Assembly (NCBI GenBank): GCA_023137315.1
Contig: JAGLPP010000117.1
Span: forward strand, 1 to 34,485
Direction of reading: 5' to 3'
Length of the DNA stretch: 34,485 bases
Source: Bacteriovoracaceae bacterium
GTDB lineage: Bacteria; Bdellovibrionota; Bacteriovoracia; Bacteriovoracales; Bacteriovoracaceae
The position numbers were made by a program, and so were the translations under genes. A model generated the notes under the pieces. It searched no databases. It was not told the origin of the DNA and saw only the letters and a list, made by a program, of their open reading frames with translations. The first letter of the stretch is position 1. Each line of letters starts with the position of its first letter. This document shows, piece by piece, positions 1 to 24,617 of the stretch.

Positions 1-1043
1 ACCTCTCCCTCATGATTAAGATAGAAGCGATCTATTCCCCCCGCTGTACACCCAAAACTCTTTTCATCCTCTTCGAATACCTGAAACAATATGGATGGAT
101 ATTGGTCAGCTACGTCCGAATGATTGTAATACTCATGATATCCATACAGTTTTTCCATCAGTTCGCTGGAATCATATATTGCATCAGGCTTGTCCAACCA
201 ACCTCCCGAGGGTTTTGCGTGAATCACTTGAACCAACGAAACATTTAACTCCTTCGAGAGTTCCATTAATCTCCCCACTCCACCTTCCAGAATATCTTCT
301 GCTGTCGGACAAAAATTTATTGCTGTTACGATCCCGTATTTTTGAAAAATCCTGATTGCTTTTTTCGCTGTTTCAAACGATCCAGCAACTCCTGTAAATT
401 TATCGTAGGTCTCCCTGTCTGCAGAATGTATTGACACCATTACCCCGTAAACACCTGCGCGTTTCATCCTTTCCGCCTTCTCTTCCGTTAGTCGATATCC
501 AGTGGTATTCACCCAAAGTTCCGCTCTCTCGTCAAATGCAGAAAGAATATCCATCAATCTCTCAAATTGAATGAGTGGCTCTCCTCCTTCAATATCAAAC
601 ATTGACACTCCAATCTCCTGCATCTCACGAGCTGTCTTTTTTAAAAGCCCCATCTCCAGATCAGTCCCCTTGTCATTTCTTTGGTAGCAATGAGGACACT
701 TGTACGGACACGCCTTGGTCATGGAAAAAACAACTGTTATCGGACCTGGTGTTTTGGTTCTTGGATCAAACTTTTTCATGGCGTGAAAAAATGGTTTACC
801 TGGAAATGCAGGAAGATATAACTGATACTTGTATTTACCATCAATCTTCATTATCTTGTTCGGATATAACGCAAAGGCCATTCGAAGTAGTCTTACAAGA
901 AATTTCACGTATCCTAAAGGACAAATTTTGAAAGTTACAAGCTCAATCGTGTACTTTACCCATATATAGAGTATCATATAAGCGTAGATCACAGGTCGTC
1001 TTAAACCAGTCATTGCCTTTTGTTCAATCCTTTTAATACTCAT
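1..1043 (-). CDS. Radical SAM enzyme, 3' end outside the window
   Basis: The reading frame is open from an ATG at 1043 to the window edge, so at least 347 residues are present and the C-terminus is missing. Residues 112-119 carry the CxxxCxxC motif (Cys112, Cys116, Cys119) that binds the 4Fe-4S cluster and S-adenosylmethionine in radical SAM enzymes. A GGEP motif follows at 153-156. About 100 residues precede the core and include a hydrophobic stretch near 18-60, so membrane association is possible. The start is 18 bases after the stop of the CerR-like gene on the same strand, so it is probably the tenth gene of the lipid operon. The substrate is unknown; modification of the lipid or its head group is an inference from context. 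A C-terminal SPASM domain cannot be judged. Confidence 0.88.
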   Translation of the reverse strand, partial: MSIKRIEQKAMTGLRRPVIYAYMILYIWVKYTIELVTFKICPLGYVKFLVRLLRMAFALYPNKIMKIDGKYKYQLYLPAFPGKPFFHAMKKFDPRTKTPGPITVVFSMTKACPYKCPHCYQRNDKGTDLEMGLLKKTAREMQEIGVSMFDIEGGEPLIQFERLMDILSAFDERAELWVNTTGYRLTEEKAERMKRAGVYGVMVSIHSADRETYDKFTGVAGSFETAKKAIRIFQKYGIVTAINFCPTAEDILEGGVGRLMELSKELNVSLVQVIHAKPSGGWLDKPDAIYDSSELMEKLYGYHEYYNHSDVADQYPSILFQVFEEDEKSFGCTAGGIDRFYLNHEGE

Positions 1044-1061
1044 ATCGATTCTCTCAATGAT

Positions 1062-2090
1062 TTATAAATATCCATTAACCTTCCACCATTTAACAGTTTT
1101 TCTGACAGCATAATCAATATCAGAATCTGCAACAAATCCAATCTCTCTTTCAGCCTTTCCAACATCATATATGTTATTGGCGTAAAGCATATAGAGTCTG
1201 GCCCTCGTAAGAAGAGGTGGCGTTTTGATTTTTAGAAAAAGATAAACAAGCTCAAGAATCAACACCGGAAAAAACAAAAGCGCCATGGGAAGATTTTTCG
1301 GTCTCTTTAACCCAAGTTCTTTACAAAACTTTCCGTAAAACTCCTGCATAAACATGACTCTCTTTGGCCCTATATTAAAGATATTCACACCAGAAAGTCG
1401 TTTTTGTATTGCACATAACACAGATTTCGCAACATCTTCGACATAAACAGTGTGAAATTTATTACTGTTTGTTCCAGGCATCACAGGTATTTTGGAGGTG
1501 ATTGTCTTGCAGTACTCGTATGGCCCGGAGTTAAACTCCCTCGGCCCAAATATCCACACCGGTCTTAAAACAGTAAGATTTAATTTGTTCAATTCTGCAA
1601 GAAATATCGCCCGTTCCTCCGCATCACGCTTTGAACATTTATAATGATTCATGCCACTGGGAAACCACCTCTCTAAAAAGTAATTTATCCGCGGCAGATA
1701 ATCATGCTCCTCATTCTTCCTGTTAATATTGTCCTCTTCGCCAATAACCGCATTTGAGCTGATATGAATGACATCTTTAATCCCTGCTTCCAACGCCATG
1801 TTTATCAACATCCCTGTAAGTTCAATATTAACTCTCTTGAACTCACTCCACTCACCCCAATCCTTCGCAAGTGCAGCTGAATGTACAAAAAAATCGGCAC
1901 CTGAAAAACATTTCTGCAAATCAAGTTTGTTGTTATAATCGACGAAACAAATATCAGCGCCCGATCTATCTATAAATTTCGAAGAAGACCCTTCTCTTAC
2001 CAAGGCCACGACCTCAAAACCATCTTTCCGTAATAAGCGTACGATATGACTTCCAAGAAATCCGTTTGCACCACTTACTACAACTTTCAC
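1062..2090 (-). CDS. NAD(P)-dependent epimerase/reductase, CerR-like (extended SDR)
   Basis: This 342-residue extended short-chain dehydrogenase has the Rossmann motif GANGFLG at residues 7-13, a Ser-Ser pair at 111-112 and the catalytic YxxxK at Tyr150/Lys154. Start is GTG at 2090, overlapping the TAG stop of the serine palmitoyltransferase-like gene by one base, which implies translational coupling. In Caulobacter an epimerase-like SDR (CerR) encoded beside serine palmitoyltransferase and an acyl carrier protein reduces the ketone of the sphingoid product. The same three-gene set occurs here, so reduction of a 3-keto sphingoid or ceramide intermediate is the best inference. A nucleotide-sugar epimerase role is the alternative. 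The SDR family call is firm; the substrate is not. Confidence 0.85.
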   Translation of the reverse strand: MKVVVSGANGFLGSHIVRLLRKDGFEVVALVREGSSSKFIDRSGADICFVDYNNKLDLQKCFSGADFFVHSAALAKDWGEWSEFKRVNIELTGMLINMALEAGIKDVIHISSNAVIGEEDNINRKNEEHDYLPRINYFLERWFPSGMNHYKCSKRDAEERAIFLAELNKLNLTVLRPVWIFGPREFNSGPYEYCKTITSKIPVMPGTNSNKFHTVYVEDVAKSVLCAIQKRLSGVNIFNIGPKRVMFMQEFYGKFCKELGLKRPKNLPMALLFFPVLILELVYLFLKIKTPPLLTRARLYMLYANNIYDVGKAEREIGFVADSDIDYAVRKTVKWWKVNGYL

Positions 2091-3343
2091 TAAATCACCC
2101 CGTATTCTCTACCAAGCGTCTCAAGTTCTTTCAATACGAACTCTATCTCGTTCCCTGTATGAGCAGACATCAGACTAAAACGAATTCTTGATTGAGTCTT
2201 GCGAACAGCAGGGAAAATAACCGCAGAAACAAATACCCCACTGCGAGCGAGGGCACATGATATTTTTTTTGTTTTATCCTCATCACCTATAATAACCGGA
2301 ACAATGGCCGTAATAGTGTCACCAATATTGAATCCCAATTTCCTTAAACGCGTCGTAAAATAAACAATATTTTTTTGGAGTAACTTCATTCTTGCAAGGT
2401 CGCTCTCCATAATCTTGAAAACCTCTATTAGTCCCCCGACAATTGATGGTGGCAATCCTGTCGAAAAAATATATGAACTTGCCAAATGCCTTATATACTC
2501 AACAAGACCACTCGACCCAACGACATATCCACCAAGTCCGGCCGGTGCCTTGGAAAGAGTACCCGTAATTACATCAACTTCACCCTTGAGTCCAAAATAC
2601 TCCTCGGTTCCCCTGCCAGTATCACCAATCACACCTATGGCATGCGCTTCATCAATCATCAACCTTGCGTTGTATTTTTTCTTAATATCAATAAGCTTGT
2701 CCAAAGTACAAAGATCACCATCCATACTGAAAACACCATCGGTAACAATGAGTACTCCTCCAAACTTATCCCGAAGCCTTTTTAAAATCTTCTCAAGATG
2801 ATCCATATCATTATGCTTGAAATATTTGACAGTCGCCTCAGTAAGCTTTGTACCATCAACAATGCTTGCGTGAGAGTACATATCCAAAAGAATTAAATCA
2901 TCCTTCTGAATCAATGAACTTATAACCCCTAAATTCGCGGAATAACCTGATGAAAAAACGGCTGAACTCTCTCGCCCGTAAAACGAAGCAATTCTCTTTT
3001 CCAGCTCCTTGTGAATCTCAAAAGTTCCGGCGAGAAGAGGTACGCTTCCTGCTCCGTATCCATATTTTTCAAGAGCGTTTTTAGATGCCTTGACCACTCT
3101 TTCATCCGACGCAAAATCGAGATAATTATTTGAACCCATCATTATCATACGGGAACTATCTTCGCTCTTTTTACAAACAACCTCTACATTTGATGATGTT
3201 GGTGTTTTCAACGCTCTTCTGTAAGCGTATTCATCCCGCTCAATTTCCCGTGTATAGAACGTCTCAAACTCTTTTAGATTTTCTAAAATATCTTTTCTTG
3301 GTTTTTCAACATGAAAGTCGTAGAACTTTTTTTTATTACTCAT
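2090..3343 (-). CDS. spt: Serine palmitoyltransferase-like alpha-oxoamine synthase (PLP)
   Basis: This 417-residue fold-type I PLP enzyme would condense an amino acid with an acyl thioester and release CO2. Visible active-site residues are His158 (in SHAS, stacking on the PLP ring), Asp231 and His234 (in DEAHA), and the Schiff-base Lys265 (in GTLSK, followed by a GGY loop). Serine palmitoyltransferase, glycine C-acetyltransferase and BioF share this fold. An acyl carrier protein directly upstream and a CerR-like reductase directly downstream favour serine palmitoyltransferase over BioF; no other biotin gene is present. The ATG at 3343 overlaps the acyl carrier protein stop in an ATGA junction. 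The acyl donor is therefore probably acyl-ACP made on the neighbouring protein. Amino-acid specificity cannot be read from the sequence alone. Confidence 0.85.
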   Translation of the reverse strand: MSNKKKFYDFHVEKPRKDILENLKEFETFYTREIERDEYAYRRALKTPTSSNVEVVCKKSEDSSRMIMMGSNNYLDFASDERVVKASKNALEKYGYGAGSVPLLAGTFEIHKELEKRIASFYGRESSAVFSSGYSANLGVISSLIQKDDLILLDMYSHASIVDGTKLTEATVKYFKHNDMDHLEKILKRLRDKFGGVLIVTDGVFSMDGDLCTLDKLIDIKKKYNARLMIDEAHAIGVIGDTGRGTEEYFGLKGEVDVITGTLSKAPAGLGGYVVGSSGLVEYIRHLASSYIFSTGLPPSIVGGLIEVFKIMESDLARMKLLQKNIVYFTTRLRKLGFNIGDTITAIVPVIIGDEDKTKKISCALARSGVFVSAVIFPAVRKTQSRIRFSLMSAHTGNEIEFVLKELETLGREYGVI

Positions 3344-3597
3344 TTTTTTTCTTTTTCCTTTTTCACCATGTCAAAATATTCAAGCATCACATTTATGGAT
3401 CTGAACTTTCCGATATCCCTGTCATCAATAACTATATCCAGAAATTCCTCAATATCGTTGGCAATTTCTATTGCGAAAATCGAATCAATACCAAGCTCCA
3501 CAATATCAGTATCAAAGTCCTTTTCCTCAATAACAATCTCTGCATTCTTCTTGATTGAACTTATAAGATGTTCCAACAGTTCGTTTCTGCTTATCAT
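3340..3597 (-). CDS. Acyl carrier protein
   Basis: This 85-residue acidic helical protein has the phosphopantetheine site ELGIDSIFAIE, with Ser39 as the modified residue. It is a dedicated carrier rather than the housekeeping AcpP: the sequence is divergent, it has a charged lysine-rich tail, and it is wedged between the UbiA gene and the serine palmitoyltransferase-like gene. A ribosome binding site AAAGGA lies about 6 bases before the ATG at 3597. Its stop overlaps the next start by four bases. In sphingolipid-producing bacteria such a specialised carrier presents the fatty acyl chain to serine palmitoyltransferase, and the same role is inferred here. A phosphopantetheinyl transferase and an acyl-ACP ligase are needed but not seen in the window. 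Confidence 0.93.
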   Translation of the reverse strand: MISRNELLEHLISSIKKNAEIVIEEKDFDTDIVELGIDSIFAIEIANDIEEFLDIVIDDRDIGKFRSINVMLEYFDMVKKEKEKK

Positions 3598-3609
3598 AAT
3601 TGTTCCTTT

Positions 3610-4602
3610 TTAGGCCTTGGCATCCCTATGAAAATTAAATATTAATTTAATCAAAAAATATGTTAAAAGTAGTAATATCAATCCCAATTTTCCATTAAAT
3701 CCTGCTATTACCGTTGCCTGCAAGGCGACACACGCTTGAATGTTTCTACAAAGGTTATAGTATGTGGAATCTCCAGTTGGAAATCTGTAGTATGAAACAG
3801 CAGTCCAGATCTGAAGAAAAAATGTAACTGCAAGACATGGCCAGAAAAGGGCCAAATGTCCAAAAGTTTCCAGTGAGTATGCTCCGAAGGAAAAACCAAG
3901 AAGAAAAATAGCGCCAGGAATGAGGCTGAACGCAATCCCGGCCTTTGCACTAAACTCCGGGCCATGCTTGACTATAAATGTTCTCTTGCCGGTTTTTAGG
4001 TCACCCTCGTAATCCTTGAAATATGTGAAGTATGTCATCAACCCATTTGCAACGGTCAATATCAACAAAACCCAAACCTGATTCAAACTCCCAATCTCAC
4101 TGCTCTTTGGCCCAAGAAGTAAAAAACCGTAAATGGGACAGGTTGAGATTGATAATCCAAAGATTATATTACCCAGCAAAGAGATAGATTTGGCATATTC
4201 ATAGATAATATTAAGAACAACTCCGGCAACAAGTGGAAGTACCGATATCGGAGAAACAAAATATGAAATCACCCCCAGTGCCATCATCATAAAAACAGAA
4301 ACAAGGAGCGCCCAAAATGGATTTAGTTTTCCACTGACCATCGGACGATTTGGAGCATTGATTTTATCCTCGGAAAGTCCAAAGTAATCATTAATAACCT
4401 GATTCACTCCATAGCTCAAAAAAAGTGCCACGAGAAAAAAAACCTTCAAACCGACAGAAACCGGCCCGTAAATATACTCATAATAGGATATGCCTATCCA
4501 ACCTGCCACTCCTGTTATAAAACCGAAATGAAGCCTCATGGATATCACGTAATATTTCAGAAAATTTAGTAAATTATTCATCATAATTACATATCGCATC
4601 AT
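3610..4602 (-). CDS. UbiA-family integral membrane prenyltransferase
   Basis: This 330-residue protein has about eight or nine hydrophobic segments. The first Asp-rich motif lies around residues 71-79 (NDYFGLSED), followed by NxPxRP; the second is DYEGD at 197-201 followed by KTGKRT. UbiA-family enzymes use these Asp motifs and magnesium to transfer a prenyl group from a diphosphate to an acceptor in the membrane. The middle Asp of the first NxxxDxxxD motif is Gly75 here, while Asn71 and Asp79 are kept, so the chemistry or metal binding may be altered. No Shine-Dalgarno is evident, and starts at Met1 or Met7 are both possible. It sits between the barrel gene and the acyl carrier protein. What it prenylates or glycosylates is unknown. 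Confidence 0.9.
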   Translation of the reverse strand: MMRYVIMMNNLLNFLKYYVISMRLHFGFITGVAGWIGISYYEYIYGPVSVGLKVFFLVALFLSYGVNQVINDYFGLSEDKINAPNRPMVSGKLNPFWALLVSVFMMMALGVISYFVSPISVLPLVAGVVLNIIYEYAKSISLLGNIIFGLSISTCPIYGFLLLGPKSSEIGSLNQVWVLLILTVANGLMTYFTYFKDYEGDLKTGKRTFIVKHGPEFSAKAGIAFSLIPGAIFLLGFSFGAYSLETFGHLALFWPCLAVTFFLQIWTAVSYYRFPTGDSTYYNLCRNIQACVALQATVIAGFNGKLGLILLLLTYFLIKLIFNFHRDAKA

Positions 4603-4604
4603 GC

Positions 4605-4621
4605 GTTAGTTCGTCACTAAC
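4605..4621. repeat. Short inverted repeat before the UbiA gene
   Basis: The sequence holds GTTAGT and ACTAAC as perfect six-base arms around a five-base loop. In the mRNA it forms a weak, AT-rich hairpin three bases before the UbiA start, where no ribosome binding site is visible. It lies at the largest gap (50 bases) inside the operon. It could tune translation or be chance. Confidence 0.35.
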
Positions 4622-4652
4622 ATCGTATTTTCAGTGTAATATTTTCAGGAAT

Positions 4653-5879
4653 TTAGAATAATATCTTGAATTTTGCGTAAACAAGATCGTTTTTATCGTA
4701 CTGGGAAAAGAGACCTCTATTATTGGTTCCTCCAAACACATACGCACCTAGCGTGACAACATAATTTTCGAAAAATGTATAGTTTCCCTCGAAATTAAAA
4801 ACCGTACCATCGTCACTCATCACAGCATTTCCAACTCTAAGCCGAACCTCAATATTTTCATCAAAAAAGCTGGTTTTATACTGAAGAAAAAGAAAATCGC
4901 TCAATCTCCGGGCCGTAATTCCCTCTTTGTACTTCATAATTTCCGAGAGAACATATTGCACGCTTACATGAATGTTCTCACCATCTGTCCAATCAACCCC
5001 TGTATTAATCTGGAACATTGCACGATCAATATTTGTTGCCGCTGCGTTTACAAGAAGTGAGATACGATCCTTGAAGGCCCCCTCAAAACGAAAAGTATAT
5101 GATTTATACGCTCCCGATACACCCAGACCATAACCATTAAAACGCCTGTAATCCTCGTGAATATTAACCGTCGTGCCTGATAGTGATTTCACATACTCCG
5201 GTATCAAATGAAATCCACTAAAATAGATCAAATCAATATCCATTACAGAAAAATCAGATGAAAACTTTATTGCGTATTGATTACTTTTAAATGGAGTTTC
5301 TTCCATTTTTTTGTCGTGTATTACAACGCCAGGAGTGGTTTCAAGTATTCTCATATCGGCCGTCCGCCAAATTGAATCACTTCCAGGAAGCTTCCCGGTT
5401 CGTTGCAGTGGCACCATAACACCTGTAATGGACGAATCACCAAAATTTAATTTTGCCTGAATAATATTGTTGGCCAGAACTCTCTCGCCCTTTTCCTTGA
5501 AGATAAAATATCTCAAATCCTCCGGCGCAAGAAAATCTGCAGGATTAAACTCATCGGCCTTCCCCCATGTTATAATTTTTCGACCTGCTGTAAATTCCAA
5601 ATTGTCTGTTGGAGTATGGATAATATATGCCGAATTCAGATTAAACTCTCCATCGACATCATTTTCGTCGATAAAATCGTGCATAATCTCCATACCGACG
5701 TTAAAAACAAACTTGCCCTTTTCTTTAAAAAAGTTGGATTCAAGCCTGTTATTAAATGACTTAACATCGCTCCTATTTGTTGTATTTTGAACAAATGATT
5801 CATAAGTTGAATCAATCTCTGAAGAGATCGCACGAAATGAAACGACAAGAAAAACAACTAAAAAAAATCTTTTTTTCAC
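4653..5879 (-). CDS. Outer-membrane beta-barrel protein, DUF1302/alginate-export-like
   Basis: This 408-residue protein has an N-terminal signal peptide (about residues 1-20) and alternating amphipathic strands, ending in an aromatic residue (YAKFKILF) as outer-membrane barrels do. Near residues 96-120 it has the pattern GRKIITWGKAD followed by NPADFLAPEDLR, typical of the DUF1302 family. Members are often encoded beside LolA-like proteins and RND pumps. Start is GTG at 5879, overlapping the upstream LolA-like stop as GTGA. In this operon it could be an outer-membrane receiver or pore for the lipid delivered by the LolA-like carrier. That role is inferred; barrel topology and family are supported by sequence features. 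Confidence 0.8.
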   Translation of the reverse strand: MKKRFFLVVFLVVSFRAISSEIDSTYESFVQNTTNRSDVKSFNNRLESNFFKEKGKFVFNVGMEIMHDFIDENDVDGEFNLNSAYIIHTPTDNLEFTAGRKIITWGKADEFNPADFLAPEDLRYFIFKEKGERVLANNIIQAKLNFGDSSITGVMVPLQRTGKLPGSDSIWRTADMRILETTPGVVIHDKKMEETPFKSNQYAIKFSSDFSVMDIDLIYFSGFHLIPEYVKSLSGTTVNIHEDYRRFNGYGLGVSGAYKSYTFRFEGAFKDRISLLVNAAATNIDRAMFQINTGVDWTDGENIHVSVQYVLSEIMKYKEGITARRLSDFLFLQYKTSFFDENIEVRLRVGNAVMSDDGTVFNFEGNYTFFENYVVTLGAYVFGGTNNRGLFSQYDKNDLVYAKFKILF

Positions 5880-6643
5880 TTAACCCGGCACCTCTTGTTC
5901 AATTTATTTGAAACAAACATTCCCTTGGACAGACCGCTGTCATAAACAACATTTTTCACTTCTAAAATAGTTTCACTATTGCTTTTGAAATTCTTCATTC
6001 TACTTTTAAGCACCGTCCAAATTCCATTTATCTTCTTCAATTCCTCAACAGTTAAAGTCTTAACCAATTTCCCTGATTTGTTATAATAATCAACCTTCAT
6101 GATGACAAAATTTACCTTATCCACCCATACCACCTTTCTGGCAATCTTTTCAGACTTCTCTTTGGGTACAGACTCTATTACATACATTCCCTTGTCATCA
6201 GCAAGTCTTTTAAAAATGTTCCTTGTCAAACTCCATTTCGATAAATCATCATATGTAAAATCGCTGGAAACAAATTTTTGATATTTATTATTCCCTGCAA
6301 CTCTTCTGGATTTCTTCTTTGATGGCAGATAGATCCAAAGATCATTATCCTTGCCGGCGTTATTCCATGAGAGAAAGGTCGTTCCCTTTAAAAGTTTAGG
6401 GGAACAGATTCTAAAAATTCCGCGATTATTTATTCCGTCGTCAATACGAAAGAACTCAAGAGTACGGTGCTTGACAACTCTCCCTCCCCCCTTTGAAATC
6501 TCCATCTCCACTTTGCAGGATAGATCACTGCCATCCTCAATATTGTAGGCCTTTGTCGCAATATCATGTCCCTTCAGTACATCTTTTGCCTGAATTTGAA
6601 AAATCAATAAGCATGTAAATAAACAAATTAATACTTTTGGCAT
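5876..6643 (-). CDS. LolA-like outer-membrane lipoprotein-sorting/lipid carrier protein
   Basis: This 255-residue periplasmic protein has a signal peptide (about residues 1-19). The central motif DLWIYLPSKKKSRRV followed by SSDFTYDDL is the hallmark of the COG2834 / LolA-like family that accompanies RND transporters. LolA-fold proteins hold acyl chains in a half-open barrel and ferry lipidated cargo across the periplasm. It is encoded between the TolC-like channel and the outer-membrane barrel. A good ribosome binding site (GAGAGGGG) lies 7 bases before the ATG at 6643. It is most likely the soluble carrier of the lipid made by the downstream enzymes rather than the housekeeping LolA; that function is inference. 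Confidence 0.85.
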   Translation of the reverse strand: MPKVLICLFTCLLIFQIQAKDVLKGHDIATKAYNIEDGSDLSCKVEMEISKGGGRVVKHRTLEFFRIDDGINNRGIFRICSPKLLKGTTFLSWNNAGKDNDLWIYLPSKKKSRRVAGNNKYQKFVSSDFTYDDLSKWSLTRNIFKRLADDKGMYVIESVPKEKSEKIARKVVWVDKVNFVIMKVDYYNKSGKLVKTLTVEELKKINGIWTVLKSRMKNFKSNSETILEVKNVVYDSGLSKGMFVSNKLNKRCRVK

Positions 6644-6676
6644 GAATAATCCCCTCTCGGAAATAATACAGAAAAA

Positions 6677-7942
6677 TTATTTTGTTTCAATTATTGGAAG
6701 AACGCCCATACAATGATTTATGCGCATACCCTTCGCATGACATAGATTGATAAATGCCCTGTGAATGGAACCCCATCCCTCAACAGATAAATTCTCTGAA
6801 TCCAAAAGACGGTTTTGATCAACAAACAGATCGTTAACTGTAATTCTTCCCTTTTGAAACCTGTTAAAATTATCCTGATAGAGTTTTCGTGACAATTTCA
6901 GGGTACTGTCCCTGCTTATTACAGTTTCATAAATCCTGCCGAATACCTTCCTTTTTAGATTCCATCCGGTTTGTACATCCCTTTTTATTCTTTCAAGATC
7001 ATAACGTGACCGGACCAGACTTGCCCTTTGTAAACGATAGGATGAATAGTTTGACAGATTATCAAACAGCGGCATGGTAATGCTAAGCATGGCCGTTCTT
7101 TCATACGCTTTCATACTCCTGTTATCCATAAAATCATAAGAATATGAAAAGTCGATCTTTGGAAAAAACGAACGTTTTATTTCCTTCACCTTGTATTCAT
7201 TTGACTGGACAATTGCATGGGCCTTCTTATAGTCAGGACGTGATGAAATGACAAAATCATCCTTTATAATATTTACATATTTTTTTTCACCCAAAAAACT
7301 CTTCCATGGCCATGCATGTTCAATATCATCGTGTCCCAAAATTGCAATCAGGTTTGCACGCGATGTTTCGTAGCTGACTTCCATATTTCTTAATCTGGCG
7401 TTGGCATTATTCAGATCAACCTGGATCTTTTGAACCTCCTGTGATGCAACCAATCCCTTACGGTAGCGTAACCTGGTTGTCTCAAGAGATGATCTTTTTA
7501 CCGCAACCATTTTTTCAAGTATCTCCAGACGAAGGAATTTTTCTATATTATCCAGAAGAACATTCACCGCTTTTGCCTCGGCAGTCAAAACGGCTTCGTC
7601 TATATTCCACGTTGAGGCCGTAAAATTTGCGTCCGCGGCCTGCATGGATGCAACATCGGCCCCAAAACGAAAAATATTAACCTTTCCCTTAAGAGAGAAA
7701 TTATCCGTTTCCGATTCCATGCGATATGTTTTTGTCCTGTAATGACCGACCGATACCGATGGCAAAAAATTCAACTTTTTTGAAAGTCCCTGTATCCTTG
7801 CCGCATTTGACGCTTCATCCGCAGGCGGGATGGTTGTATCCCTTTTTAAAATTTCATCAAGGGCATCTTTAAAATCAAGGTTCTTTGCCGAAACAAAACA
7901 GCAATTGAAAAACAGAATAATAGCAATACAGATTCTGTTCAT
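6677..7942 (-). CDS. TolC-family outer-membrane efflux protein
   Basis: This 421-residue protein has a signal peptide (about residues 1-19) and long helical stretches with two repeats, including the RLRYRKGLVASQEV region and its second-half equivalent FQKGRITVNDLFVDQNRL, as in the outer-membrane efflux protein family. The start is taken as ATG at 7942, because an AGGAGG lies 5 bases before it; the GTG at 7945 would leave only 2 bases. The stop of the RND gene overlaps this ATG by one base (TGATG). It would form the outer-membrane exit duct of the RND pump encoded just upstream. Confidence 0.9.
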   Translation of the reverse strand: MNRICIAIILFFNCCFVSAKNLDFKDALDEILKRDTTIPPADEASNAARIQGLSKKLNFLPSVSVGHYRTKTYRMESETDNFSLKGKVNIFRFGADVASMQAADANFTASTWNIDEAVLTAEAKAVNVLLDNIEKFLRLEILEKMVAVKRSSLETTRLRYRKGLVASQEVQKIQVDLNNANARLRNMEVSYETSRANLIAILGHDDIEHAWPWKSFLGEKKYVNIIKDDFVISSRPDYKKAHAIVQSNEYKVKEIKRSFFPKIDFSYSYDFMDNRSMKAYERTAMLSITMPLFDNLSNYSSYRLQRASLVRSRYDLERIKRDVQTGWNLKRKVFGRIYETVISRDSTLKLSRKLYQDNFNRFQKGRITVNDLFVDQNRLLDSENLSVEGWGSIHRAFINLCHAKGMRINHCMGVLPIIETK

Positions 7943-10900
7943 CACTGCCTCCTCTTTGTAGAAGGAGAATCCTTTTCATTAGATCCTGAATCTGATTCGG
8001 AAATAACAGATGATTGAAAATCCGTTTTACTTGTTGAAGTTTGCTTCTTGTATGAAAGATCATTTTTCATCTTTCGTTCCAGATATAACACTTCCAACAA
8101 TGGAACTATGAATAATGTAAACAGCATGGAAACCCACAGCCCTCCACTGACACTGATTCCAAGAGGTTGAAGAACTCTTCCACCGTCTCCAAGTCCAAAA
8201 GCAATTGGAAGCATTCCAAGTATTGTGGTCAAAGAGGTTATTAAAATAGGCCTGAGTCTTTTCTTTGCAGCTATAACTGCCGCCACCCTCGGTGAAAATC
8301 CCTTGTCGGCAAGCTTTCTAATGAAGTCAACCAGAATGATTGAATTGGCAACAGCTATTCCGTTTAAAAGAATAACTCCCAACGCAGAATTCAAAGAAAG
8401 CGTGCTTTTAAAAATGAAAAGGGAGATGAGCACGCCCAAAATCCCCGTTGGAATCGCAGTCATGACAATAAATGTATGTACAAAACTTCCAAATTGAAAA
8501 AGCAAAATCACAAAGATAAGAAGTATTGACATACCAATGGCAAAACCAAGATTTTTAAGAGCATTTGTAAGATCCTTTTCGGCATCCTCAAAATAAAAAT
8601 TCGGAGTCGATTCAAGTTTGAGATCCTTGAGACCTTTCTCCTTGAACTGTTCTACAACCAAGGCTGCCTGTTTGAGGGATTCATCTTTATTGAATTCATC
8701 ACCCTTATTACGTCGCCCCTGGATTACAAAAATACTTCTTTGATTTTCACGATAAATTTGCGGCCTTGCCATTTCAACATCCACCCGGGTTACGGCCTTT
8801 AGTGGAACAATCTTGTTTCCTATTTTTATTGGCAACGACTCCAAATCCTCCCTTGTTTCAACAATTCCCCTCTGATATTTCATATGCATTTGATAGTATT
8901 TATCCTTTATGATGAGATTACCTATGCTTTTTCCCTCGGTAATGACCCTGGTAAGATCAGCAATATCAAATGCATCAAAAGTGGCACCGGCCCCCACAAA
9001 TCCAGGCCATCTTTCCAGATACGGCCTTAAAATAATATTTTCTTTCCTGGAAACACGCGGATCACTCCACAACCTTGGAAAATTATCTTTTTCCTTTAGC
9101 TTGTTTAAAAGACCCTTTGTGGCCCACGCACGATCCTGAAGCTCCCCTCCCTTGACAACAATTCGCATCTGCGGAGGATCGGGAATTGGTAATTCAGAGG
9201 GATTCCATGGGATCACGAAAAAAAATAAAAGTGGAGTGTTTGTAAAATGCTTCTCCATTGCCTTCCACACATCATTCATATCCCCCTTCTCATGAAGACG
9301 GGCCATGATGGTTCCACGGTTGGCCGATCTTATCTGCGTAAATGTGTACTTGATTTTTTCACCAAAGGTATCGAGCAGTTCATTTTCAATTTCAGAAACC
9401 GTATTCTCCATCTGACGAACCAGGGTGTTTCCATTTGTATGAACCCCGAGAATAATCCAATCCGTATCCGGAGTACTGATAATCTCCCTTTTCAAACCTG
9501 GAAGAACTGTAAGTAACAATACTACAAGCAGGGAAACAACTCCCGAAAGTACAATCCATTTTAATTTTTTACTCGCAATAAATTTATCCAGCAGACTGCC
9601 GTAGACGTTCTCGGTCCTTACAATTGTCCCTTCAATTGGCGACTTTGCAAGTTTTTCCATTCCACCTTTTCTGCTCAATATGTGAAGCCTGATTGTCGGA
9701 ACCAGAACAAGTGCCACCAAGGCGGAAAATCCATGTGAAAAAACAACCGCTTTGGCCAGGTCTCCAAGAACAGCATATGTAAGGTCACTGGTAAACGCCA
9801 ACGGAATAAAAACAACAAGTGATGCCACAGTTGAGGTAATGACAGGAGACATAACTTCTCGAACAGCATTAACCACCAGCTTTAAACGTTCCTTGAAATT
9901 AAGCACTCCCTCAACGCCTTCAAAATGTCTGAATATATTTTCCATGACAACTACTGATGCATCAACATTCATCCCGGCCGAAAGTGCAAGGCCACCAAGG
10001 GAGATCATGTTGATATTCATTCCAGTAAGTTTCATGAGAATAAAGGCCAAAACCATACTGAGAGGAATTTCGATTGCCGCCGTTATTGTATTTTTCAAAC
10101 TGCCTACGAAAAGGAAAAGGACTAGAACGGCCAGAGCGGCCGCCATCAAAACCTCATGCATAACATTGTTGACGGAGGACCTGATGAATCTTGATGGATC
10201 AACAAGGACGCGGTACTGAATGTCTTTTGGAAGATTTTTTATTGCCTTTTCGACAATCGTAATTATCTCCTCCGCCATCCTTTTCACGTTTCCGCCATTT
10301 TTGGGACTGGAAAAAAGAATCAGGCTCTTTGCGCCGTTGGTCTTGAATACCTTGGTATGGTTTGAACTAGGAGCAAGATCAATCGTTGCCACCTGGGAAA
10401 GTGGTATAAGACTGCCGTTTGGGGTTTTTACCAGAAGAGAGGCAAGCTTTTGGATTGAGCCAAGATCACGTGGCATTTTTATCGAAAGTTTTTTTGTCCC
10501 AACGGCAACACTTCCACCCTTGTAACCACTAAGTGCCTTTCCTACTGCTCTTTCTATATCGACGGGAAAAATTCCAAGAGAGGTCATCGCCTCGAAATTC
10601 AGTACAATCCTGACCTCCTGTCTGCCAGGATTCCAAAGACCGGGATTTTCGGCATCCTTGACCTTCGCAAGGTGAGGAGTAATAACCGGGTCCAACGTAT
10701 CATAGAGATCATTTAAATCCCTTTTTTCACTAAAAAAACTGATCGCAATAAATCCTGAAGAATTCCCCCAAAAACCAACCCAGTAGTTATTACGAATCTC
10801 CTTTGGCCAGTTTGCGCTGATGGACGCTATTGCATCCTTTGATTCCTTTGTAGCGTCATCCGGATCCACGCCCCACTTGTAGTGGACTATAAAAACGGCC

Positions 10901-11172
10901 CTGGATTCTTGAAACTTGGACTCAATTCTCTCCACTTCAATATCGTTATTTGAAATGGCATCAAGTGCCATCTCTATCCGATAACCGTATTGATCCAAAA
11001 ACTCTTCCGCCGTCAGATTTCCATAAGGAACAGTGACACCAACCACCGGTTTACTGCTGTTTGGATAGAGGGATACCGGAAGATCGAATCCGGCATAAAG
11101 GCCAAGCAGGGCAAATGCCAAAATACATAAATAGACCCTGAAAGGAGAAGAATATATTTTATTCAGGTCCAT
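7942..11172 (-). CDS. RND-family inner-membrane transporter (AcrB/CusA type)
   Basis: The protein is 1076 residues long, the usual RND size. It has a transmembrane helix at about 12-32, a periplasmic loop to about 335, a helix bundle at 340-490, a second loop, and a C-terminal bundle ending in a Ser-rich cytoplasmic tail. The fourth helix has VDASVVVMEN with a single Asp404, as in CusA, rather than the Asp pair of AcrB. In the second bundle GIAVANSIILVDF has Ala where AcrB has the proton-relay Lys940. The protein is proton driven by family. No Met-rich metal site is evident, so metal export is unlikely. Operon context favours lipid or lipid-precursor extrusion. An AGGGAAGAG ribosome binding site precedes the ATG. 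Confidence 0.93.
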   Translation of the reverse strand: MDLNKIYSSPFRVYLCILAFALLGLYAGFDLPVSLYPNSSKPVVGVTVPYGNLTAEEFLDQYGYRIEMALDAISNNDIEVERIESKFQESRAVFIVHYKWGVDPDDATKESKDAIASISANWPKEIRNNYWVGFWGNSSGFIAISFFSEKRDLNDLYDTLDPVITPHLAKVKDAENPGLWNPGRQEVRIVLNFEAMTSLGIFPVDIERAVGKALSGYKGGSVAVGTKKLSIKMPRDLGSIQKLASLLVKTPNGSLIPLSQVATIDLAPSSNHTKVFKTNGAKSLILFSSPKNGGNVKRMAEEIITIVEKAIKNLPKDIQYRVLVDPSRFIRSSVNNVMHEVLMAAALAVLVLFLFVGSLKNTITAAIEIPLSMVLAFILMKLTGMNINMISLGGLALSAGMNVDASVVVMENIFRHFEGVEGVLNFKERLKLVVNAVREVMSPVITSTVASLVVFIPLAFTSDLTYAVLGDLAKAVVFSHGFSALVALVLVPTIRLHILSRKGGMEKLAKSPIEGTIVRTENVYGSLLDKFIASKKLKWIVLSGVVSLLVVLLLTVLPGLKREIISTPDTDWIILGVHTNGNTLVRQMENTVSEIENELLDTFGEKIKYTFTQIRSANRGTIMARLHEKGDMNDVWKAMEKHFTNTPLLFFFVIPWNPSELPIPDPPQMRIVVKGGELQDRAWATKGLLNKLKEKDNFPRLWSDPRVSRKENIILRPYLERWPGFVGAGATFDAFDIADLTRVITEGKSIGNLIIKDKYYQMHMKYQRGIVETREDLESLPIKIGNKIVPLKAVTRVDVEMARPQIYRENQRSIFVIQGRRNKGDEFNKDESLKQAALVVEQFKEKGLKDLKLESTPNFYFEDAEKDLTNALKNLGFAIGMSILLIFVILLFQFGSFVHTFIVMTAIPTGILGVLISLFIFKSTLSLNSALGVILLNGIAVANSIILVDFIRKLADKGFSPRVAAVIAAKKRLRPILITSLTTILGMLPIAFGLGDGGRVLQPLGISVSGGLWVSMLFTLFIVPLLEVLYLERKMKNDLSYKKQTSTSKTDFQSSVISESDSGSNEKDSPSTKRRQ

Positions 11173-11181
11173 GACTCTTCC

Positions 11182-12072
11182 CTACATTTTGTTTTGTTTT
11201 GTTTTCTTATTACTTTCAATTTTGACTTTTTCACCGTCCGCCAGATATCCTGATGATCTTACAACAACAATATATCCGTCTTTCAACCCTTCAGTAATTT
11301 CAACCTTTCCACGACGGCCCTTTCCAAGCTTTACCGGAATTTTTCTTATTTTTTCATTTTCAACAATTTTCAGAAACGGAAATTTCCCATCATAGTAAAT
11401 AGCATCCTCGTTGATAACAAATCCCTTGTGAACATTTGACTTGAATACCGCCTGTCCGAGAGAACCAATCAGGATATCTTTTCCGTCATCAGAATTATCA
11501 ACACTCAATTCTGCTGTTGCAGTTCCAGTTCCAGGGTCAACAAATGGACTTACACCCTTTACTTTGATTTTTATTTTTTTATTCATTCCCTTTACGCTGA
11601 ATTCACCTGCAAGATTTTTTTTAATGTACTTCAAATCCAGTGCTGTCACCTCCATCCTTATGGAGTACTTCATGGGATCGGTTACTGTCATAAGTCTCTC
11701 CCCTTTGGAAACAAGACTTCCTTCCGTGATGATGATGGAACTTACTACTCCATCAACTGGTGATTTGATGTTTACAGGTTTATATTTATAAATCGGATCG
11801 GTGTGACGGACAGAAGCGAGTTTGGAATTTTTTACAACCTTCTCTCCCAATCCTACATGCAATTTGGCAATTACTCCCTGGGACTCAGATAACACGGCGG
11901 CATTCACTTTTGGAATTACCTTTGCCGGATAGCTGTAAGTATCAAAAATTTCCTGTAATACAACTTTCTTGACAAATACACTTTTGATTTTTTTCCCATT
12001 CTTCGGCGCAGCGGCCAATATTGAATAATTTGACAAGAACACTAATACAATCAGAATACAACTCAGTTTCAT
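11182..12072 (-). CDS. Periplasmic adaptor (membrane fusion protein, HlyD/AcrA family)
   Basis: This 296-residue protein has an N-terminal signal/anchor (about residues 1-21), a first lipoyl half (around 50-88), a second lipoyl half starting near 100 (VNIKSPVDGVV), then beta-barrel and membrane-proximal domains. Family adaptors link an RND pump to a TolC channel. Here the two lipoyl halves are joined by about a dozen residues, with no room for the usual coiled-coil hairpin. It is the first gene of the operon, with an AAGGA ribosome binding site 7 bases before the ATG at 12072. The RND gene starts 9 bases after its stop. Confidence 0.9.
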   Translation of the reverse strand: MKLSCILIVLVFLSNYSILAAAPKNGKKIKSVFVKKVVLQEIFDTYSYPAKVIPKVNAAVLSESQGVIAKLHVGLGEKVVKNSKLASVRHTDPIYKYKPVNIKSPVDGVVSSIIITEGSLVSKGERLMTVTDPMKYSIRMEVTALDLKYIKKNLAGEFSVKGMNKKIKIKVKGVSPFVDPGTGTATAELSVDNSDDGKDILIGSLGQAVFKSNVHKGFVINEDAIYYDGKFPFLKIVENEKIRKIPVKLGKGRRGKVEITEGLKDGYIVVVRSSGYLADGEKVKIESNKKTKQNKM

Positions 12073-12287: not shown

Positions 12288-12881
12288 ATGCTCTTGACAA
12301 AAATCGCCTTGATGCTGACATTTATATTTCTAACCTCATGCAGCGTCTTTAACAGCGGAACACTGTCCATTAAATATACACAAGCAAAGGCCACCTTTTT
12401 TGAAAAAAACTATCAAAACAAGGATGACTGGACCAACGTATCCTTCTCCATTCGAAGAGTTCAACACCCTTATACATACGGCGACTGGAACATGAATCTC
12501 AGCATCTCTCCTTCAATTCATTTTGACAGAACCAAACTCGAGCTAAATGGTAACGGTGAAATTAGAGCTGAGGACAGATGGCGCTACCCTGATGTCAAAA
12601 TCCAGCGTGGTTCGGCACTTGGCAATCTGAAATTAACGATTCACACTCCAATCGGGGCATTTGCCGGAGCTGCCGGTTATGGAATTGCCGGCTATTATGC
12701 CAAGGCACCAAATCTGGATACCTATAAGACATCTGAAATCAGAAAACTCGATATCGTTTATATCGGATTTTTAAGCAAACGGATATTTTTTCTCTCCGGT
12801 CCACGTTGGTACTATGATGGAAACTGGCAGTTTTTCTGGGCCATTCGTTTTGGTTATTTCTGGGGTAGAATAAAAAAATAA
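12288..12881 (+). CDS. Predicted lipoprotein of unknown function
   Basis: This 197-residue protein has a lipoprotein signal: one Lys, a hydrophobic core and a lipobox FLTSC with Cys18 as the lipidated residue. The mature part is rich in Tyr and Trp and ends in aromatic beta-like segments (residues 160-195). I do not recognise the family. Starting at the next Met (12312) would lose the Lys of the signal peptide, so 12288 is kept. The gene is divergent from the lipid/export operon and shares its control region, so co-regulation is possible. It stands alone, ending 6 bases before the convergent hydrolase gene. Confidence 0.85.
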   Translation: MLLTKIALMLTFIFLTSCSVFNSGTLSIKYTQAKATFFEKNYQNKDDWTNVSFSIRRVQHPYTYGDWNMNLSISPSIHFDRTKLELNGNGEIRAEDRWRYPDVKIQRGSALGNLKLTIHTPIGAFAGAAGYGIAGYYAKAPNLDTYKTSEIRKLDIVYIGFLSKRIFFLSGPRWYYDGNWQFFWAIRFGYFWGRIKK

Positions 12882-12887
12882 AAAAAA

Positions 12888-14090
12888 TCACATCCGTGGC
12901 ATATCTCCATAAAAATGTTTTGCAATAAGCTTGAAGTTAAACAACATCACATCGGTTCTGGTATAAACCCCGTGCCCGAAAAGAGTCTTCAAAAAATTTG
13001 GATAAATAGCCGAATCCTTGTAATCAATCAACAAGCTTCTCCCAACATTATGAATCCTCCGACGCTCTTTGATTCTCCTTCTCCATAAAGAAAGATTACT
13101 TCCCACCCCAAGCATATCATCAAGAAGAATATTAAGCTCCCTTTCATTGCTGATTGGAGAAAGAAGATCACTTCCTGCAACTCCATACTGCTGTATATAA
13201 TCCCCATCCCTGGTGAACAAAATTCCTTCCGCTCCCCCGCCAAAGGGTTCCTTTCCGCGATGATTGATAAAATGAAGAAGTCTCATGTTTTTTCCAAGCA
13301 TCCACTCATATCTTACTGGTGTCCCCAAGGTAACCATATCAGGCCCGTATTGTTTGAGCGTCATGATATAATCCATTAAAAGAGCAGTATTGTATCCGGC
13401 CCTTGAAGCTATATTCAAAAATTTCTTCCTGAGTTTTTTGCTTGATAGCATCTGTGACATTATGACAAAAAGCTGACCTGCGTGAGAGTGTCCAATCAAA
13501 AGTACACGTTCCCCCTTGTTATAAAGTAACAAAGTGTTGGCAATTTTACTTATCAAATCAATTGCCCCTTTTACTCTTGCCAAATGATGATTGGCCGATG
13601 ACCAGACGAAAGGAACTATTTCAATTTCACTCCCCCATGCATCCTCAAGAATCCCGATATACTCATTCGTAAAATTTCCCATCTCACGAAAAAATGCCCT
13701 CTGCCGTTTATGAACAAAACCTCTGATTGTTTTCTGAATCATCTCAGACATGCCAGGAATTGTTTTTCCCACCATGGAAACAAGATCAAAAGGATCATCA
13801 CCGGCAAAGGTTCCATGAACAAGAAAAACATGACCAACCTTGTGCTTTTTTAGTTGCTCCCCGACATTTTTCAACTCCTCCTGCCACGATTCATCCTGGC
13901 CTGTAAAACTCTTATCCTTCTTATTAAATGGCCTGCTCCTGACAATATCCAAAAACTCGAAATTCTTTTTTTTTGGATATTGTGGTTTATATGCATCCTC
14001 GGAAACCTTTCTCTCTCGAAGATACCTTCTCAAAATCCAGAATATGATTCCAAAAAGCAGAAAAATTGTAATTACATATAGATATTGCAT
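12888..14090 (-). CDS. Membrane-anchored alpha/beta hydrolase (lipase/esterase-like)
   Basis: With the start at ATG 14090 this is a 400-residue protein. The N-terminus is one hydrophobic anchor (about residues 2-20) followed by RRYLRERK, so the enzyme domain is held at the membrane. HGTF near residue 92 fits the oxyanion-hole motif, and GHSHAG contains the likely nucleophile Ser202 in the GxSxG elbow; a VTLGTPVRYEW segment follows. The fold is that of lipases and esterases, but no substrate can be named. A frame extension to GTG 14123 exists, but the promoter boxes at 14127-14100 lie inside that extension, so 14090 is preferred. It is divergent from the lipoprotein gene at 14168. Confidence 0.8.
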   Translation of the reverse strand: MQYLYVITIFLLFGIIFWILRRYLRERKVSEDAYKPQYPKKKNFEFLDIVRSRPFNKKDKSFTGQDESWQEELKNVGEQLKKHKVGHVFLVHGTFAGDDPFDLVSMVGKTIPGMSEMIQKTIRGFVHKRQRAFFREMGNFTNEYIGILEDAWGSEIEIVPFVWSSANHHLARVKGAIDLISKIANTLLLYNKGERVLLIGHSHAGQLFVIMSQMLSSKKLRKKFLNIASRAGYNTALLMDYIMTLKQYGPDMVTLGTPVRYEWMLGKNMRLLHFINHRGKEPFGGGAEGILFTRDGDYIQQYGVAGSDLLSPISNERELNILLDDMLGVGSNLSLWRRRIKERRRIHNVGRSLLIDYKDSAIYPNFLKTLFGHGVYTRTDVMLFNFKLIAKHFYGDMPRM

Positions 14091-14099
14091 CCAATTAAA

Positions 14100-14127
14100 A
14101 CTATAACACATAGGAATTCGCACACAA
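14100..14127 (-). promoter_or_regulatory. Promoter of the alpha/beta hydrolase gene
   Basis: On the minus strand TTGTGT (14127-14122), a 16-base spacer and TATAGT (14105-14100) end 9 bases before the ATG at 14090. Transcription would start at or next to the ATG. No ribosome binding site is visible. Confidence 0.55.
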
Positions 14128-23021: not shown

Positions 23022-23657
23022 ATGGATAAAACAACAATTCATCACAAACTCATGGCACGATTACTTTTTCTAAGCTACGTTGCAATCCGTTTTCTGCTTG
23101 GAAACAGGATTCTTGCCTTCAATCCTTACGCAACGTATTTTTTTGATACTGCCTTTATTGTATTCATCTCATTGATTTACAAAAAAGACATTCCATACAA
23201 AATATACCGGAATAAAATCCAGCTTGTTGAATTCCCCGTTATTTTCATTTTTGGAATGGCCATTTTCATGCTGTCACAAATATTTAATTGGGACATCCCT
23301 GTCAATTTTCGACATACAGAAAGCATCATTTTCCTAATCATCATATCACCAATTCTCGAGGAACTTCTTTTCAGGCAATCGTTTATTCATATTTTTAAAA
23401 ATATTTTAAACAATCCATGGTATATTATAATTACAACCGCACTGTTATTTTCACTGTCACACTATTATACCAATGCCTTGAATTATCCAGGGACAAGACA
23501 ATTCATTATTTTTCAGACAGTCTACACTTTTGGACTCGGAATCTGGCTTGGATGGCGTTATCTGAAAACCAAAAGCATACTCCATGTAATCATTTTGCAT
23601 TTTTTCCTTAATCTTGGTTTTGGTATTGCTGGATATTTATTCGCTGGCGCAAATTGA
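23022..23657 (+). CDS. CPBP-family intramembrane metalloprotease
   Basis: This 211-residue protein has about six hydrophobic segments. The family motifs are present: EELLFR (EExxxR) near residue 115, LSLSHYY with the second-motif His, and HFFLNL (HxxxN/B) near the C-terminus. CPBP proteases are Rce1 relatives that cleave near membrane surfaces, and many bacterial substrates are unknown. The ATG at 23022 follows the glycogen synthase stop by one base and has no ribosome binding site of its own, so reinitiation is likely. The last 21 bases overlap the convergent 326-residue gene. Confidence 0.87.
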   Translation: MDKTTIHHKLMARLLFLSYVAIRFLLGNRILAFNPYATYFFDTAFIVFISLIYKKDIPYKIYRNKIQLVEFPVIFIFGMAIFMLSQIFNWDIPVNFRHTESIIFLIIISPILEELLFRQSFIHIFKNILNNPWYIIITTALLFSLSHYYTNALNYPGTRQFIIFQTVYTFGLGIWLGWRYLKTKSILHVIILHFFLNLGFGIAGYLFAGAN

Positions 23658-24617
23658 ATCCAAAAGGCCGGTCATTCCCCTTCCCTCTCCGATCATCACA
23701 AATTCATGTCTGATCATGTTCCATGAGGTTTTATCATTTTTAATTCTGCAAACTTCTCTTGCAAATGATTTTATTTCCGGGTTGGATGGATAAAAAAGTC
23801 CGCGAGGAGATAGCATTCCGAGAAACCTTTTGAGTAATGAATAAATTGTGTAAGGATCATCCCTTTGAAAAGAAACCTTGATCCTGTTCACCAGTAAATC
23901 CCTCATTCCGGCATCCTTTACCAGTGGATTATTTGCAAGCATCATAAAAACATCGGCCTTGGTGGTTCCATTCATTTGTGACAGACATTCAAGAATCTTG
24001 TTAAAAGAATTTCCCGTCCCATTGTCCATGGCAAGAAGCAGCTCGATAGATGCGAGTTGAACATCATTATTTTTCATCCCGGCAAGTTCAAAAAGTTCAC
24101 TATCACTTAAAAAATCCTCGACATTCGCCACCCCTTCCCGCGAGGCAATAACCAAAAACTCCAGCGAATTTACAAGCAACTTGTGAAGCTCGGTATTGTT
24201 TTTATCAAAAAGGCGATGTCCAGAATCCTTCTGGCCGCAGATATCAGTCAAAAGACATTCTGAAAGTTTCTTTGAAATAACTCCTGCCATATCAATAATG
24301 GCCGGCGACAAGTCATCCAGAAGATTATAAAGATCAAATCCAGGTGGAGCAAAAATCTTTTGAAATTCCACTGATTCAACAAGTTTTTTTCCAAATTTTT
24401 TTTTCAGAATATCTTCAAGTTCGCTGTTTTTTAATTTCTCTTCAGCTTTTTTATGAAAGTGTCCACTGGTATCAGAATCTTCAACTTTTTCGCTTACAAA
24501 AATGTTTTCCATAAAAACGCTGACATCATTATATTGATATTGTCTTTTTGAAAAAAACAAAAAAAGAACAACAAACAGAATGATAATAAAAAGGATAATT
24601 AAAATAAAATTTTTCAT
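23637..24617 (-). CDS. Membrane-anchored protein of unknown function with helical repeats
   Basis: This 326-residue protein begins with one hydrophobic helix (about residues 3-23) followed by a basic turn, so it is probably anchored in the inner membrane. The rest is alpha-helical and charged, and the middle (about 165-290) looks like HEAT-type helical repeats. I do not recognise the family. The ATG at 24617 is 6 bases after the stop of the transglycosylase-like gene, so the two form an operon and may act together at the cell wall. Its 3' end overlaps the convergent CPBP gene by 21 bases. Confidence 0.75.
   Translation of the reverse strand: MKNFILIILFIIILFVVLFLFFSKRQYQYNDVSVFMENIFVSEKVEDSDTSGHFHKKAEEKLKNSELEDILKKKFGKKLVESVEFQKIFAPPGFDLYNLLDDLSPAIIDMAGVISKKLSECLLTDICGQKDSGHRLFDKNNTELHKLLVNSLEFLVIASREGVANVEDFLSDSELFELAGMKNNDVQLASIELLLAMDNGTGNSFNKILECLSQMNGTTKADVFMMLANNPLVKDAGMRDLLVNRIKVSFQRDDPYTIYSLLKRFLGMLSPRGLFYPSNPEIKSFAREVCRIKNDKTSWNMIRHEFVMIGEGRGMTGLLDSICASE

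Follow-up and report, generated by a model that had tools for sequence, protein, structure and literature searches.

A ten-gene array at the edge of a contig

The window analysed here is the complete contig JAGLPP010000117.1 (34,485 bp; G000:C21, that is, contig C21 of genome G000) of a Bacteriovoracaceae bacterium, and one end of it holds a dense gene array in which transport genes are followed by candidate lipid-building enzymes. Ten open reading frames (ORFs), all on the minus strand, run from position 12072 to position 3 in the order that an earlier note on this DNA had given, with junctions of −4 to +50 bp. The array begins with a periplasmic adaptor (MFP/HlyD family) of an HAE1-type RND pump (11182..12072; HlyD_3, E 8e-17; TIGR01730 above cut-off), an AcrB-type (HAE1) RND permease (7942..11172; ACR_tran, E 2e-148) and a TolC-type outer-membrane channel (6677..7945; OEP, E 3e-36), joined by junctions of 9 and −4 bp. 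After 33 bp there follows a LolA-like periplasmic lipid carrier (5876..6643; LolA_like PF17131, E 4e-48), which overlaps by 4 bp a DUF1302-like outer-membrane barrel (4653..5879). The enzyme half starts 50 bp further on with a UbiA-family membrane transferase (3610..4602; UbiA, E 2e-26, 93.5 bits against a cut-off of 34.2) and, after 12 bp, a dedicated acyl carrier protein (ACP; 3340..3597; PP-binding, E 7e-9). It continues with an alpha-oxoamine synthase (AOS) of the SPT/KBL/BioF superfamily, belonging to what we call cassette type A (2090..3343; Aminotran_1_2, E 6e-55), an extended short-chain dehydrogenase/reductase (SDR) of the ketone reductase type (1062..2090; Epimerase/3Beta_HSD) and a radical S-adenosylmethionine (radical SAM) protein (3..1043; Radical_SAM, E 4e-21), with junctions of −4, −1 and 18 bp.

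The domain names given earlier were borne out by Pfam for nine of the ten proteins. The barrel has no Pfam match, and for it the name DUF1302-like is reasonable by profile, since a profile of the barrel and its two orthologs aligns full-length to barrels of neighbouring families, including a DUF1302 member (hhalign probability 97.7, E 1.6e-12); a single-sequence AlphaFold model of the barrel was unusable (mean pLDDT 32). AOS enzymes use pyridoxal 5′-phosphate (PLP) and condense an acyl thioester with an amino acid, releasing CO2. In the window enzyme the AOS fold signature is present, and Lys265 within SGTLSKAPAG, the PLP Schiff-base lysine, is invariant across the AOS alignment. The SDR carries the signatures of an extended SDR, GANGFLG (GxxGxxG) and YKCSK (YxxxK).

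The radical SAM gene crosses the contig edge. Hence, the tenth gene is truncated within its C-terminal SPASM part, which is present in a full-length ortholog, and further genes follow. The ten-gene array as first described is thus correct but incomplete: base 1 is not the end of an operon, and the ten genes form the terminal part of a more extensive cluster. Scans for internal promoters and terminators gave no excess over shuffled sequence within the array, which makes a single transcription of the ten genes plausible.

A nine-enzyme cassette in seven genomes

In a sample of about 1,640 genomes, seven were found to carry a cassette of UbiA, ACP, AOS, SDR, a radical SAM/SPASM protein, a diacylglycerol kinase (DAGK)-type lipid kinase, a ThiL-like kinase, a flavoenzyme of the old yellow enzyme (OYE) type and a ketosynthase, the last of which was not seen in one fragmented cluster of the seven. 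The carriers are G000, two members of its family (G011 and G028), the more distant relative G024 and three Clostridia (Acetivibrio alkalicellulosi, G756 and G552). In G011 and G028, the genes UbiA-ACP-AOS-SDR-radical SAM keep the window order at 40–65% identity, and the clusters extend into the DAGK-type kinase, the ThiL-like kinase and the OYE-type flavoenzyme; in G028, the order downstream of the radical SAM gene is DAGK, ThiL-like, OYE and an MMPL pump. G024 has the order UbiA-ACP-AOS-DAGK-ThiL-ketosynthase-SDR-radical SAM-OYE, and G756 and G552 hold a compact single operon, UbiA-OYE-ACP-AOS-DAGK-ThiL-ketosynthase-SDR-radical SAM, an order shared by A. alkalicellulosi, but there with other genes intervening at UbiA. 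All nine enzymes are present in G024 and the three Clostridia, and the ACP was detected in 7/7 cassettes, in G552 within a short frame.

The radical SAM gene is rare. Within the window's phylum, 4 of 369 genomes have it at E ≤ 1e-30, and strong matches are found in 3 of the 391 sampled Clostridia, its profile having led to A. alkalicellulosi and then to G756 and G552; no match of comparable score was found in 395 Bacteroidota. Further Clostridia and four Bacteroidota gave weaker matches (about 174–199 bits), and those examined lacked a surrounding cassette. OYE matches in G017 and G150 lie in unrelated contexts, and AOS relatives in Acetivibrio (L015) and Aquimarina (L016) have different neighbourhoods. 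Active-site signatures are intact in most members (CxxxCxxC in radical SAM, GGDGT in DAGK, D[TS]SDG in the ThiL-like kinase and YxxxK in the SDR), the ThiL-like signature being unmatched in G011. The spread of the cassette is patchy and horizontal-looking, and the comparison of these genomes supports the view that these enzymes are inherited together as a true module, of which no published account was found in the open-access literature searched.

Within the cassette, the AOS comes in two types, A (G000, G011 and G028) and B (G024 and the Clostridia), which form separate clades (100/100 each), whereas UbiA, SDR, OYE, DAGK, the ThiL-like kinase and radical SAM are homologous across the types at 27–52% identity, and the seven cassette SDRs form one group (86/89). 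Most simply read, the cassette kept the condensing step but exchanged the enzyme for it, which argues that an amino-ketone would be a required intermediate. The UbiA protein is also unusual. Its first motif, NDYFGLSED, has one Asp fewer than the usual NDxxDxxxD, and its second, KDYEGD (DxxxD type), is intact; both recur as NDY[F/L]GxxED and KDYxGD in 7/7 cassettes. Its nearest solved relatives are digeranylgeranylglyceryl phosphate synthase and chlorophyll synthase, which both use allylic diphosphate donors; the cassette UbiA differs from both in its first motif (NDxxGxxED) and in lying among lipid kinases and an AOS. The changed motif suggests an unusual chemistry or, equally, a lost or different activity.

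Gene order in G011 and G028 predicts that the window's cluster runs on into DAGK, ThiL-like, OYE and an MMPL/HAE3 pump, and then into dehydratase and ketosynthase genes. Of these, OYE, MMPL, the dehydratase and the ketosynthase are found on C14, another contig of this genome, after the end of a ThiL-like gene; among the predicted genes only DAGK is not seen on it, and the ThiL-like gene is partial. A search of the window's genome for the missing DAGK gave a sole match, a generic DAGK of 21% identity. C14 has a GC content of 37.3% and a tetranucleotide correlation to the rest of the window of 0.938, similar to the enzyme half's own value of 0.928. In G011 the corresponding genes lie on two contigs: C109 carries DAGK-ThiL-OYE-MMPL, a divergent dehydratase, LolA and the barrel, and C71 carries the remaining cassette. 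The end of C109 and the start of C71 share exactly 72 bp within DAGK and, hence, the stretch from UbiA to MMPL, dehydratase, LolA and barrel is one locus in G011.

Transport genes that accompany the cassette

Conserved co-occurrence in relatives had been set beforehand as a test of whether the exporter and enzyme halves belong together, and the two parts of the exporter half behaved differently: LolA and the barrel co-occur with the enzymes, but the MFP-RND-TolC trio does not. Of the LolA matches among 129 genomes of the family, the best two come from the close cassette carriers G028 (50%) and G011 (39%); in a tree with 15 others, which include paralogs from G000, G011 and G024, the LolA proteins of these two carriers and of G000 group as one clade (100/99). 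In contrast, the carriers are dispersed by rpoB, where G011 comes 26th of 27 in identity to G000 and the starred branches force four changes. The LolA clade matches cassette carriage and not rpoB. The MMPL pumps are 44–48% identical among the three carriers, with next-best matches there of about 24%, and barrel orthologs adjoin LolA in G028 and G011. The idea that the exporter half is absent from relatives was overturned by LolA and the barrel on C109 of G011 together with the 72-bp overlap. In the window's own genome LolA and the barrel lie in the window and MMPL on C14; the three stand together as one locus in G011. In summary, it is supported that in Gram-negative relatives the MMPL/HAE3 pump, the LolA-like protein and the barrel belong to the cassette. 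No transporter was found beside the cassette in G024 or the three Clostridia, nor was one identified in the tested flanks of G756 and G552. In G028, the barrel is followed by ORFs of 231, 442, 1089 and 229 aa, for which Pfam gave either TPR-type matches or none (L068:5985-11971, G028:C60); they possibly belong to the same locus.

The MFP, ACR_tran RND and OEP genes lie adjacent in the window, as in an HAE1 trio. RND matches at E ≤ 1e-140 occur in 30 of the 129 family genomes; the best (58–59% identity) are in G007, G088 and G089, which hold the same MFP-RND-TolC trio, and none of which is among the radical SAM carriers. This trio is a generic HAE1 pump. Elsewhere, an HAE1 RND match lies within a 1501-aa frame both in G024 (C10:66403-69504) and in G019 (C85:5433-8555), which suggests a pump fused to a neighbouring subunit.

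A natural fusion in G096 (L075:7539-10649, contig C105) joins an N-terminal MMPL-type RND pump to a LolA_like domain (residues 855-1034). In Castellaniella defragrans, AmeABCD combines a DUF1302 barrel, a LolA-type (DUF1329) protein and an HAE3 RND pump in an apparatus that handles apolar monoterpenes (PMC6394551), with the parts of the export line proposed here, a barrel, a LolA-like protein and an HAE3/MMPL pump; unlike in AmeABCD, no AmeC-type partner was identified in our system, and the linked genes are lipid-building enzymes and not monoterpene degradation. Together, the co-inheritance of MMPL and LolA, the G096 fusion and the AmeABCD precedent make the MMPL pump a more likely natural partner of the LolA-like protein than the adjacent AcrB-type pump. 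In several further genomes of the family (G092, G098, G020 and G086), LolA-like matches also lie within open frames of about 1,000 aa, which are perhaps the same MMPL-LolA fusion.

Proposed product and alternative explanations

We put at roughly 0.55 the probability that the locus belongs to a gene cluster that makes a specialised lipid and delivers it by a dedicated route to the outer membrane. Its gene content, conservation and co-inheritance are read directly from the genomes; the reactions, their order and the export are predicted as follows. The product would most likely be a phosphorylated amino-alcohol lipid, which a UbiA-type transferase would process and which would be delivered to the outer membrane. 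The dedicated ACP and the ketosynthase, with the dehydratase in the window's type, would make an acyl thioester, which the AOS would join to an amino acid to yield an amino-ketone. Extended SDRs reduce ketones and DAGK-type kinases phosphorylate lipid hydroxyls; here, the SDR would convert the amino-ketone into an amino-alcohol, and the DAGK-type kinase would phosphorylate the hydroxyl. ThiL makes diphosphates from phosphate monoesters, and UbiA enzymes use allylic diphosphates as donors for group transfer within the membrane. Correspondingly, the ThiL-like kinase may put a second phosphate on the monoester and the membrane UbiA-type enzyme would attach a prenyl or lipid group, either with the phosphorylated amino-alcohol as the prenyl acceptor, as in digeranylgeranylglyceryl phosphate synthase, or with the phosphorylated amino-alcohol itself activated as the donor. 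As an analogy only, this stack of an alcohol kinase, a phosphate kinase and UbiA resembles plant phytol salvage. Radical SAM and OYE would tailor the chain. Export would run from the MMPL/HAE3 pump through the LolA-like carrier to the barrel, which would accept the product at the outer membrane. The window's HAE1 trio would be a general pump recruited beside the cluster in its own genome.

A bolder and distinctly tentative version, which we consider improbable as a whole, is a new class of membrane lipid, in which a sphingoid-like amino-alcohol is phosphorylated by the DAGK-type kinase, converted to the diphosphate by the ThiL-like kinase and joined, as acceptor or donor, to a second chain by the UbiA-type enzyme with its changed metal motif, giving a prenylated or ether-type sphingoid lipid; this would be encoded by one mobile nine-gene cassette of Gram-positive and Gram-negative bacteria, with an outer-membrane delivery line added in some Gram-negatives only.

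A nine-enzyme set kept across phyla and patchily spread argues for one defined product, and the meeting of UbiA, an AOS and two stacked kinases in one operon is surprising to a specialist. A putative lipid carrier, a pump and a barrel travel with the enzymes that would make their cargo. The transporters that take bacterial sphingolipids to the outer membrane had stayed unidentified in 2024 work on Caulobacter (PMC11087976), and the monoderm and diderm versions of the cassette offer a natural experiment on such transport.

Several points weigh against a lipid cluster with its own export line. The adjacency of C21 and C14 in the window's genome is deduced from synteny, and the piece with the end of the radical SAM gene, DAGK and most of the ThiL-like gene is absent from that assembly. 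In G028, LolA, the barrel, the dehydratase and the ketosynthase sit at another locus, and the linkage is thus not absolute. The 50-bp gap between the barrel and UbiA could conceal a transcript boundary. UbiA lacks one of the usual metal-binding Asp residues, and its prenyl-diphosphate chemistry could be altered or lost. Finally, the ketosynthases are only 23–30% identical between types A and B and, together with the separate AOS clades, this suggests that the acyl part may differ between the cassette types.

The array had been read in the earlier note as an operon with a sphingolipid-type synthesis module, the AOS being called serine palmitoyltransferase (SPT)-like and the SDR CerR-like. Its claim of a modified lipid with its own export line is supported, but the sphingolipid label is an analogy only. 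As a rival explanation, a canonical bacterial sphingolipid operon with attached transport genes would make ceramide precursors for the outer membrane through SPT, ACP and CerR, with UbiA and radical SAM merely decorating the sphingoid base. The rhodobacterial set of spt, acpR, an SDR (cerR/epi) and aasR lies together in Caulobacter (CC_1162-1165) and in E. coli BL21 (ECD_02851-02854; PMC9386255), and the cassette likewise pairs an AOS-family condensing enzyme with a dedicated ACP and an extended SDR; furthermore, the solved structures that match the window AOS best are those of SPT (3a2b, 297 bits). We nevertheless consider this explanation quite unlikely. The BL21 SPT groups not with the window AOS but with a paralog on contig C13 of the window's own genome (100/98), and BL21 CerR groups with the C13 SDR (95/94), apart from the cassette SDRs; BL21 SPT and CerR are long branches, and this grouping is good but short of certain. 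The window AOS reaches 377.5 bits against the cut-off of 640 of the SPT model NF047600, which is weak evidence by itself, as the C13 paralog also falls below it (477.6 bits). The separate SPT-like and CerR-like pair (L032:1620-3827, G000:C13) is probably the ordinary sphingolipid route of this genome. Since this pair lies inside the characterised clades and the window proteins outside, the latter are unlikely to be the genome's SPT and CerR, and the window module appears to be a paralogous pathway. Neither an acyl-ACP synthetase nor a ceramide synthase was identified in any cassette, and the AOS of type B is deeply different while the other enzymes stay. Unlike the rhodobacterial set, the cassette holds six more conserved enzyme families, UbiA, radical SAM, DAGK, the ThiL-like kinase, OYE and the ketosynthase, most of which do not belong to the bacterial sphingolipid pathways known.

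A natural product outside the membrane, such as a pigment or an antibiotic-like alkaloid secreted by RND pumps, is doubtful to us, if less so than the canonical sphingolipid operon. Here, a prodigiosin-bipyrrole-like set of AOS, ketosynthase and ACP would turn a beta-ketoacyl-ACP and serine into a hydroxymethylpyrrole, which two phosphorylations would activate and UbiA would couple. A ketosynthase and an ACP lie near the AOS in type B, the ketosynthase weakly matches PigJ, and the distribution would fit such a product. Aryl polyene and flexirubin clusters, like the cassette, have a ketosynthase, a dehydratase, an ACP, an MMPL exporter, a LolA-like carrier and an outer-membrane product; we know of no AOS, UbiA, radical SAM, DAGK or ThiL-like genes in them. 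However, closure of a pyrrole needs no SDR ketone reductase, and the DAGK, the relation of UbiA to ether-lipid and chlorophyll synthases, and the LolA-like carrier point to a membrane lipid. The celluxanthene (cex) cluster, a known Acetivibrio arylpolyene cluster that is present in A. alkalicellulosi, as is the cassette, has other genes (an iterative PKS, two KASIII, an AMP ligase and a PPTase), with no AOS, UbiA, radical SAM or lipid kinase named (PMC12144888), and we rejected celluxanthene, the yellow affinity substance, as the product on this difference in gene content. Least probable is that the exporter genes are chance same-strand neighbours and that the functional unit is confined to the enzyme half. 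This probably holds for the MFP-RND-TolC trio, which is conserved as a trio in cassette-free genomes, and the cassettes of the Clostridia and G024 show no adjacent transporter; against it stand the contiguity of LolA, barrel and MMPL with the enzymes in G011, a LolA clade that tracks the cassette, and the closeness of the three MMPL pumps.

Three further ORFs of the window have no Pfam match (12288-12881, 12888-14123 and 23637-24617; 197, 411 and 326 aa), one of them being the gene divergent from the ten-gene array. In the E. coli BL21(DE3) sphingolipid region (L171:15835-22067), a fatty acyl-AMP ligase, an SDR, an ACP and spt adjoin genes annotated as LptF/LptG permeases, a further hint of dedicated lipid export beside sphingolipid genes. 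On plasmid p1-AD2 of Roseomonas mucosa (L165:4774-10707), an ACP and an AOS-family enzyme lie near diacylglycerol-kinase-family and CDP-alcohol phosphatidyltransferase genes, perhaps a plasmid-borne sphingolipid-like locus.

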